Assembly: GCF_000497445.1 (NCBI RefSeq)
Contig: NZ_CM002285.1
Coordinates: 6,086,797 to 6,116,694, forward strand
Length of the DNA: 29,898 bases
Reading direction: 5' to 3'
From: Streptomyces roseochromogenus subsp. oscitans DS 12.976
Lineage (GTDB): Bacteria > Actinomycetota > Actinomycetes > Streptomycetales > Streptomycetaceae
A program made the translations under genes and the position numbers. Positions 9,704-28,389 of the stretch are shown piece by piece. The stretch's first letter is position 1, and every line of letters starts with the position of its first letter. Below the pieces are notes generated by a model. It worked only from the letters and a program-made list of their open reading frames with translations, had not been told where the DNA came from and did not search any database.

Positions 9704-9740
9704 GGGCCGTTCCGTACCATCCCTCGGTACGGAACGGCCC
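9704..9740 (+). terminator. Strong terminator hairpin after the permease
   Basis: GGGCCGTTCCGTACC (9704-9718) pairs perfectly over 15 bp with GGTACGGAACGGCCC (9726-9740) around a seven-base loop, followed by TTCTGCTT. It separates the permease from mec. Confidence 0.85.
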
Positions 9741-9760: not shown

Positions 9761-10183
9761 ATGCTGACCATCACCCAGGCCCTCGTCGACCAGATCGTCG
9801 CCCACGCGCGCAAGGATCACCCCGACGAGGCGTGCGGCGTCGTGGCGGGCCCGGCGGGCTCGGACCGCCCCGAGCGCTTCATCCCCATGCTGAACGCGGC
9901 GATGTCCCCGACGTTCTACGAGTTCGACTCGGGCGACCTGCTCAAGCTCTACCGCGAACTGGACGACCGCGACGAGGACCCGGTGGTCATCTACCACTCC
10001 CACACCGCCACCGAGGCCTACCCCTCGCGCACCGACATCTCCTACGCCAACGAGCCCGGCGCGCACTACGTCCTCGTCTCCACCGCCGACACCGACGGCC
10101 TCGGCGATTTCCAGTTCCGCTCCTTCCGGATCGTGGACGGTGAGGTCACCGAGGAGGAGGTCAAGGTCGTGGAGGCCTACTGA
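9761..10183 (+). CDS. mec: JAMM metalloprotease acting on the CysO sulfur carrier (Mec)
   Basis: From ATG 9761 the protein is 140 residues, a single MPN/JAMM domain. The full zinc signature is present: catalytic E23 (HPDEACGVV), then H-S-H-T with seven residues to S and two more to D (HSHTATEAYPSRTD). In M. tuberculosis, Mec (Rv1334) cleaves cysteine from the CysO-cysteine adduct made by CysM, releasing free cysteine. A relative, QbsD of Pseudomonas, trims residues after the diglycine of its carrier. Here cysO and cysM follow in the same order as in M. tuberculosis, but separated from mec by a 261-base region with its own leader peptide. The CysO encoded here has a tail beyond its diglycine, so trimming is a plausible extra job. 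Confidence 0.92.
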   Translation: MLTITQALVDQIVAHARKDHPDEACGVVAGPAGSDRPERFIPMLNAAMSPTFYEFDSGDLLKLYRELDDRDEDPVVIYHSHTATEAYPSRTDISYANEPGAHYVLVSTADTDGLGDFQFRSFRIVDGEVTEEEVKVVEAY

Positions 10184-10250
10184 TCCCGGGATCTGGACGG
10201 ATTTCATCCAGCATGCGAGATCACACTCCGATGGCGGGACCGGGAATCGT

Positions 10251-10256
10251 TACGAT
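10251..10256 (+). promoter_or_regulatory. -10 hexamer of the cysteine leader peptide
   Basis: TACGAT is followed by six bases and the leader ATG at 10263, so transcription should start at or beside that ATG. No good -35 box is seen at the expected spacing. Confidence 0.5.
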
Positions 10257-10262
10257 GAGCGC

Positions 10263-10358
10263 ATGGTTCTGAACGACGTGAGCGAGAAGGCGCCGGGCAT
10301 GCTGCTCGTGGCGCGGCTGCACGTCGACCTGTGCAGGCTGAACAGCGCCATCTGTTGA
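10263..10358 (+). CDS. 31-residue cysteine-type leader peptide upstream of cysO-cysM
   Basis: The peptide starts MVLNDVSEKAPG and ends ARLHVDLCRLNSAIC, with the last codon before the stop being Cys (TGT TGA) and another Cys at position 24. The H-V-D-L-x-R-x-x-S-A-x-C ending is one I remember from short actinobacterial leader peptides placed before sulfur and cysteine genes. In mycobacteria, cysteine-coding leaderless uORFs have been shown to act as cysteine-responsive attenuators. A TACGAT box six bases before the ATG implies leaderless translation, and no ribosome site is present. A large hairpin (10373-10413) follows 14 bases after the stop, and cysO starts 86 bases after it. The likely role is to let the ribosome sense cysteinyl-tRNA and control cysO-cysM. 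The coding call is strong from the motif; the mechanism is inferred. Confidence 0.8.
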   Translation: MVLNDVSEKAPGMLLVARLHVDLCRLNSAIC

Positions 10359-10372
10359 TTCCCCCTGCCGCC

Positions 10373-10413
10373 GTTCGGCCCGTGTGCCGCGGCGGGCCGC
10401 CGCACGCCCGAAC
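10373..10413 (+). terminator. Candidate attenuator hairpin between leader peptide and cysO
   Basis: GTTCGG (10373-10378) pairs with CCGAAC (10408-10413), CGT with ACG inside it, and a core GCGGCG (10389-10394) pairs with CGCCGC (10398-10403) across GGC. The hairpin begins 14 bases after the leader stop, so a ribosome stalled on the final Cys codon would approach or cover its left arm. There is no U-run; it may act in translation or Rho-dependent control instead of intrinsic termination. Confidence 0.6.
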
Positions 10414-10444
10414 CGACGACACCTTCCGACAGGAGCCCTGAGCC

Positions 10445-10789
10445 ATGGCCATCGAGGTCCGCATCCCCACCATCCTCCGCCAGTACACCGACGGTCAGAA
10501 GGCGGTGGAGGGCAGCGGTGACACCCTCGCCGCGCTGTTCGCCGACCTCGAGACCCGGCACGCGGGCATCCGGGCCCGGATCGTGGAGGGCGAGCAGCTG
10601 CGCCGCTTCGTGAACGTCTACCTGAACGACGAGGACGTCCGCTTCCTGGACGGCATCAACACCAAGCTGTCCGACGGCGACAACGTGACGATCCTGCCGG
10701 CCGTGGCCGGAGGATCTGCCGCGGCGTCAGCCGCGTCCGGCCGGGATGGTGGCCGGGCGACGGGCGGGCCTGCGCGGATCGGTCGCTGA
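10445..10789 (+). CDS. cysO: Sulfur carrier protein CysO (MoaD/ThiS fold) with C-terminal tail
   Basis: The 114-residue protein has AGGAG nine bases before its ATG. Residues 1-90 match the ubiquitin-like CysO core: EVRIPTILRQYTDGQKAVEGSGDTL, FVNVYLNDEDVRFLDG and VTILPAVAGG. In M. tuberculosis CysO ends exactly at this Gly-Gly, which is made into a thiocarboxylate that donates sulfur to CysM. Here the frame continues for 24 residues after G89-G90 (SAAASAASGRDGG and so on), low in complexity, with 6 of 24 codons ending in A or T, unlike the core. The tail must be removed before activation, presumably by the Mec protease, or the protein is inactive. It is followed by cysM after six bases. Core identity is strong; the tail is unusual. 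Confidence 0.92.
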   Translation: MAIEVRIPTILRQYTDGQKAVEGSGDTLAALFADLETRHAGIRARIVEGEQLRRFVNVYLNDEDVRFLDGINTKLSDGDNVTILPAVAGGSAAASAASGRDGGRATGGPARIGR

Positions 10790-11746
<957 letters not shown>

Positions 11747-28300: not shown

Positions 28301-28356
28301 GGTGCGTCGTCTTTTCCTGGGGGTCGGGGATCCCGGTACGGCGCGTCTCGTCGGGC
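28301..28356 (-). promoter_or_regulatory. Guanidine-III riboswitch (ykkC-III) upstream of gdx
   Basis: Read on the minus strand, CCCG-ACGAGACGCGCCGUAC-CGGG is followed by a C-rich linker and AGGAAAAGACGACGC. I compare it with the Thermobifida fusca guanidine-III aptamer as I remember it: CCGG, ACGAGGUGCGCCGUAC, CCGG, then AGGACAAGACGGCGC. The first stem covaries (CCGG/CCGG becomes CCCG/CGGG) while the loop ACGAG..GCGCCGUAC and the 3' AGGA.AAGACG stay fixed. GCGCCGU can pair with ACGACGC with one C-A mismatch as the second stem. The linker is longer than in T. fusca. The aptamer ends about 22 bases before the GGAGG site of gdx. Confidence 0.82.
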
Positions 28357-28389
28357 TGACCGCTTTCGAACATAGCAAAGGAAGTGCAA

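Follow-up and report, generated by a model that had tools for sequence, protein, structure and literature searches.

A conserved, very probably leaderless cysteine leader before cysO-cysM in Streptomyces overlaps a SigR-type promoter

The short frame between a mec-like gene and cysO raises the question of whether ribosomes sense cysteine there, and from which promoters such a sensor would be transcribed. In the window (the whole 29,898-nucleotide stretch of Streptomyces DNA that was analysed), a mec-like gene (JAB), the leader, a cysO-like gene (ThiS) and a cysM-like gene (cysteine synthase) follow one another on the plus strand (Table 1). A strong terminator-like hairpin (9704-9740, plus strand; 15 pairs, then a T-rich tail) lies between a permease gene and mec and would set mec-cysO-cysM apart from upstream transcription. 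From the evidence below, the frame is a conserved member of a known leader family; it is a cysteine leader, very probably leaderless, and probably lets ribosomes sense cysteine. What is new is the arrangement, in which the leader overlaps a SigR-type promoter and, probably, holds two nested leaderless starts. Published work is cited from the accessible parts of each source.

Table 1. Features of the mec-cysO-cysM region (positions in the window).
Feature	Position	Strand	Basis
mec-like gene, Prok-JAB domain	9761..10183	+	Pfam PF14464, 106 bits; upstream of leader
SigR-type -35 element GGAAT	10243..10247	+	GGAAT-N18/19-GTT in 190/191 leader-bearing loci; consensus from the accessible part of PMC9205884
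Housekeeping (HrdB-like) -10 box TACGAT	10251..10256	+	TAnnAT in 187/187 tabulated loci and 3 re-read
SigR-type -10 element GTT	10266..10268	+	overlaps leader codon 2; two registers: N18 134/187, N19 53/187
Leader ORF, 31 codons, ATG to TGT TGA	10263..10358	+	NF042934, 35.9 bits; 191/198 readable family loci
Codon 6 GTG, proposed second leaderless start (SigR transcripts)	10278..10280	+	GTG 177 / ATG 10 of 187, GTG in 3 more; function inferred
Peptide core R-L-H-V-D-L-C-R-x5-C	10314..10355	+	protein-level conservation; last Cys codon UGU 10353-10355
GC-rich hairpin, putative role	10373..10413	+	folding and covariation tests
cysO Shine-Dalgarno AGGAG	10431..10435	+	sequence reading
cysO-like sulfur carrier gene	10445..10789	+	Pfam ThiS PF02597, 63.8 bits
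cysM-like cysteine synthase gene	10796..11746	+	TIGR01136 cysKM, 369.7 bits, cut-off 344.15

The frame at 10263-10358 encodes 31 residues (MVLNDVSEKAPGMLLVARLHVDLCRLNSAIC), with Cys24 as TGC (10332-10334), Cys31 as TGT (10353-10355) and TGA as its stop (10356-10358). A reading of the sequence alone had described a TACGAT box (10251-10256) six bases before ATG 10263, 31 codons ending in TGT TGA, 14 bases from the stop to 10373, and cysO at 10445; all of this is borne out by the letters. The peptide matches the whole profile (positions 1-19) of the NCBIfam family NF042934, “putative leader peptide” (cis_reg_atten), at 35.9 bits against a cut-off of 27, and shares its 19-position core. The score against NF042936, the Ms4527A Cys-rich leader, was 16.6 bits, below the cut-off of 45, which places the peptide outside that family. 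Matches to NF042934 above the cut-off occur at 10 places in the genome, the window leader included, and in 78 of the 118 genomes of a class sample. Unlike the window leader, the family is tied by its search results neither to cysO nor to a stress promoter.

Conservation was followed in 200 cysO upstream regions: that of the window, those of 80 named loci and those of a further 119 loci in the same family (from genomes of 17 genera); the 80 nearest named loci comprise 79 labelled Streptomyces and one labelled Kitasatospora. Readable regions numbered 198, L033 (masked Ns) and L137 (sequence too short) being left out, as was L103, which is the window again. The leader core is present in 191 of the 198 readable Streptomycetaceae loci and absent from seven (L035, L057, L112, L130, L132, L189, L217). 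The sequence-only reading, which would have fallen had the frame and its Cys codons not been conserved in related Streptomyces, therefore gains support on this point: relatives keep the frame, its start codon, the spacing of the box and the Cys codons, as expected of a leaderless cysteine leader. The 191 leader loci consist of 187 tabulated loci, three re-read ones (L065, L072, L099) and L200. Entry to the table required a GGAAT-N18/19-GTT match and left TAnnAT, its spacing and the ATG free; 169 of the 187 are distinct from box to core. Because the loci are related, counts across them are not independent; substitutions per codon or base were mapped on a cysO tree. The frame is open from the ATG to the core in 185 of the 187 loci. 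The exceptions are L155 and L156, where reading from either start meets a TGA and the leader resumes at an ATG further on. These two loci carry an apparent short duplication after codon 6 that shifts the frame, and the reopening ATG overlaps a TGA.

The peptide itself appears to be under selection. The core residues R, L, H, D, L and the second R are unchanged in the 187 loci, with up to 16 third-base codon changes on the tree; residues that stay fixed while their codons change argue for selection on the peptide and not only on the RNA. The first Cys is found in 186 of the 187 leaders (TGC in 184, TGT in two) and the last in 180, always as TGT; no locus lacks both codons. These residues would also suit an arrest peptide, in which the nascent RLHVDLCR chain stalls the ribosome and cysteine or another ligand, rather than starvation at Cys codons, is the signal: codon starvation alone needs none of them, and seven leaders do without the last Cys. 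We nevertheless regard arrest as quite improbable, given that none of the 187 leaders is without both Cys codons, that UGU is fixed at the last, and that mycobacterial relatives with Cys runs are, in the literature accessible to us, reported to respond to cysteine.

The preference for UGU at the last Cys extends beyond cysO. Among the NF042934 members of the genome (L001-L012; 12 of 13 loci were readable by pattern), the codon is TGT in 11 of 12 and encodes Ser in the twelfth, the other Cys codons being mostly TGC. It is TGT in 27 of the 27 readable loci of the class sample (30 loci, six of them from the window’s genus, of which three are cysO leaders), where the other Cys codons of the peptides are TGC 43 times and TGT 12 times; the corresponding counts in eighteen long window ORFs with GC-rich third positions are 64 and 13. 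UGU may mark the decision codon through slower wobble decoding. If the rule holds, it singles out the codon at which this widespread family of actinomycete leaders takes its decision. As a cause of the UGU we considered base pairing between CUGUUG (10352-10357) and CGACAG next to the Shine-Dalgarno sequence (10427-10432), and rejected it despite its invariance in 32 hand-chosen sequences: ACAGGAG precedes cysO in only 133 of the 191 leader loci while UGU stays, so this pairing does not account for it. In one other family (L282, L284, L285), Cys-run leaders such as RRAVDLCRVAGCCCCCC have the same core, with TGT at the same place.

At the other end of the frame, TAnnAT stands exactly six bases 5' of the ATG in 190 of the 191 leader loci (the 187 tabulated and the three re-read). 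The hexamer starts eight bases into the SigR-type box in all 187 tabulated loci, and on the cysO tree its two middle bases change five and seven times and the other four never. This fixed TAnnAT-N6-ATG spacing fits leaderless initiation at ATG 10263. By eye, the AT-rich box of L270, a leader from outside the family, lies seven, not six, bases before the ATG.

With TACGAT, the sequence-only reading had found one promoter correctly, but its picture was incomplete, as an overlapping SigR-type promoter had been missed. An exact GGAAT-N18-GTT, the one match in the whole window, overlaps the leader start at 10243-10268. Shuffles of the whole window contain 0.35 such matches on average, so the single match is not significant in this sequence alone, and what counts is conservation of the box across loci. 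GGAAT-N18/19-GTT is found at the leader start in 190 of the 191 leader-bearing loci; L200, the sole exception among them, is without GGAAT and GTT, yet has TACGAT, six bases and ATG. The GTT coincides with codon 2 in 134 loci and is shifted by one base downstream in 53; the register changes twice on the tree. Kept in either of two registers, it behaves as a DNA element, not as a codon. GGAAT-N18-19-GTT is the published SigR consensus (PMC9205884), and by the match at 10243-10268 and its conservation the locus has the promoter type of the SigR regulon.

The outgroup consisted of 57 loci outside the family, the best 57 of 114 non-kin genomes with a match. Twenty-eight of these 57 actinomycete loci have GGAAT-N18/19-GTT at most 300 bases from cysO and no leader, the chance level for the box being about 0.002 per locus in mononucleotide shuffles; an N17 match in L244, also non-kin, sits in the mec coding sequence and was not counted. 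A leader was found by motif search in four of the 57, all of one other family and all without the box. The SigR-type box before cysO is thus widespread and found without the leader. In the window’s own genome, the upstream stretches inspected for other NF042934 members held no GGAAT-N18/19-GTT by eye. The literature found, as far as accessible, does not show SigR dependence of cysM, and genes of the cysO/cysM region are not named in the searched parts of PMC9205884 and PMC2375139.

Codon 6 (10278) stands at, or close to, the predicted SigR start point. This codon is GTG in 177 and ATG in 10 of the 187 tabulated loci, and GTG in L065, L072 and L099; on the cysO tree its third base never changes and its first changes between G and A twice, unlike codons 3, 4, 8 and 9, which change freely. 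GTG or ATG occupies codon 6 in all 190 loci that have both the leader and the box and in none of five leaders without the box, which have GCC (L200) or CAC (the four leaders of the other family, L270 by eye); the Fisher p of 4e-10 for this comparison ignores the relatedness of loci, the five box-less leaders coming from only two lineages. At the same position, RTG occurs with none of the 28 boxes without a leader outside the family and in two of the seven leader-loss loci within it. With the fifth base of GGAAt numbered -31 (PMC10012870), +1 falls on codon 6; a SigR start some two bases earlier is also compatible with the base composition that follows GTT in other boxes. Mycobacteria commonly use leaderless RTG starts (PMC4633059). 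Codon 6 would be most simply explained as a second leaderless start, used by SigR transcripts. L155 and L156 were rejected as proof of such a start, as their frame reopens at the later ATG.

Alternatively, the housekeeping promoter alone could make the leader, with codon 6 kept for another reason. SigR transcripts would then begin within the ORF, lack a usable start codon and thereby escape cysteine control during thiol stress. That the SigR start position is a predicted one leaves room for this reading, and the 28 of 57 non-kin loci in which SigR-type boxes stand before cysO without a leader make bypass a plausible history. It is unlikely in our estimation, because RTG at codon 6 is tied to the presence of leader and box together and GTG has been replaced only by ATG, twice on the tree. 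We give slightly better than even chances to the joint claim that there are two in-frame leaderless starts, one at each sigma factor’s promoter start point, and that UGU is fixed by position-specific selection across the family’s actinomycete leaders. With one start per promoter, the choice of sigma factor would alter the leader’s N-terminus and never remove the sensor.

The seven leader-loss loci bear on whether the frame has a role at all. All seven keep the SigR-type box and TAnnAT, and such persistence would be expected if the frame were an accident of overlapping promoters with no regulatory function. This is very hard to credit: the core, well downstream of the promoter, shows conservation at the protein level, the leader belongs to NF042934, and in loci that have lost the leader both the ATG (kept in four of the seven, with GTG in one more) and codon 6 have decayed.

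A two-promoter, two-start cysteine leader controlling cysO-cysM is therefore the explanation that we favour, and we hold it to be rather probable. On comparison of the loci, both promoter boxes, both start-like codons, the peptide core and UGU are conserved; from this we infer the transcript starts, translation, the cysteine response and the coupling step. The leader ORF between mec and cysO-cysM would act in cis as a cysteine sensor under two overlapping promoters. Transcripts from the housekeeping promoter (TACGAT) would start at or next to ATG 10263 and those from the SigR-type promoter (GGAAT-N18-GTT) at or near codon 6, GTG 10278. Both would be leaderless and open the same frame, giving a 31- or a 26-residue peptide, so that the mRNA would carry the sensor under normal growth and thiol stress alike. 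The ribosome would read the RLHVDLCR core and slow at the Cys codons, the last being UGU, when charged tRNA-Cys is scarce. This slowing would raise expression of cysO-cysM; the likeliest means is a change in the RNA that separates leader from cysO, affecting access to the ribosome-binding site or access of Rho. If this is true, about 25 base pairs bring together two ways of controlling cysteine supply, one in which the ribosome gauges demand and one in which SigR responds to thiol stress, and the locus shows how a leaderless sensor survives a promoter switch.

The sequence-only reading had assigned the coupling step to a strong, attenuating hairpin at 10373-10413. Its position is as read; its strength does not exceed what base composition gives, the hairpin being no stabler than shuffles. 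The fold of 10359-10460 reaches -34.6 kcal/mol, compared with -37.3 in dinucleotide shuffles (z +0.77), and that of 10263-10450 gives a z of +0.07. In an alignment of 32 sequences, hand-chosen for similar layout, 96.8% of the cells of the helix are paired, which does not exceed shuffles. The covariance proposed as a check across Streptomyces did not appear in alignments of these 32, with no double-sided change in 33 predicted pairs or in the named helix, and next to no shared fold emerged when 66 loci were aligned. The window sequence has no terminator-like site between leader and cysO, and none of 184 distinct loci has a five-T run between the last Cys codon and the cysO Shine-Dalgarno sequence. 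With stability at shuffle level, no covariation and no U-run, the hairpin is not an intrinsic terminator, and its attenuating role is not supported. A conserved switch at 10373-10413 was rejected on stability, double-sided changes and common fold, and a classical transcription attenuator because there is neither a hairpin with a U-run nor a set of covarying alternative hairpins. An Rfam element at the leader was likewise discarded, the sole gathering-level match in the window being located elsewhere; it is a Guanidine-III riboswitch at 28301-28376 (minus strand; 42.4 bits, gathering score 36).

The real gaps leave the cysO Shine-Dalgarno sequence less exposed than shuffled gaps do (0.134 vs 0.229; 90 of 184 loci), and in 184 loci it pairs with the leader (0.34) and the gap (0.47). 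Masking up to the first or the last Cys codon did not separate real from shuffled sequences (Wilcoxon p 0.72 for the first, 0.29 for the last); in this simulation of a stalled ribosome, masking the leader freed the site no more than in controls. In these folding models, the hiding of the site leans towards control at the ribosome-binding site. Candidate routes from leader to cysO are translational control, Rho and nascent-chain arrest.

The leader is less new than the sequence-only reading had taken it to be: its family is already named in NCBIfam, and later papers credit Canestrari 2020 with describing leaderless ORFs of mycobacteria that respond to cysteine. As early as 2005, mycobacterial cys operons were predicted to have Cys leader peptides that lack terminators (PMC1262725). 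The mycobacterial Ms4527A family (NF042936) is likewise a leaderless Cys-rich leader before sulfur genes; it has Cys runs where the window leader has two spaced Cys, and, unlike here, the accessible literature on it describes no overlapping SigR-type promoter. Leader peptides of Streptomyces lividans are likewise leaderless attenuator ORFs, several without a U-tract, and the accessible table of eight includes no cysteine leader (PMC8079986). In M. tuberculosis, SigH, a SigR-type sigma factor, controls the orthologous mec-cysO-cysM operon with the consensus GGAAYR-N17-18-GTT; the accessible text assigns regulation to Rv1334 (mec) as first gene and describes no leader (PMC4803200). The cysM gene of S. 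coelicolor is diamide-induced and hardly expressed without diamide, with NdgR also named and SigB cited as raising cysM (PMC4340878), and SCO2910-SCO2912 rise in oxidative stress (PMC4991794). SCO2912, annotated as hypothetical, adjoins SCO2911 and is co-induced with it (PMC4340878; PMC4991794). In titles and abstracts, subscription papers lying mostly outside the search, no Streptomyces cysO leader, leader-nested stress-promoter start or UGU rule was found. The locus offers a simple Streptomyces genetic test of leaderless GTG initiation and of cysteine control of stress-induced cysO-cysM mRNA. SCO2912, we presume, may be a misannotated frame over the leader region.
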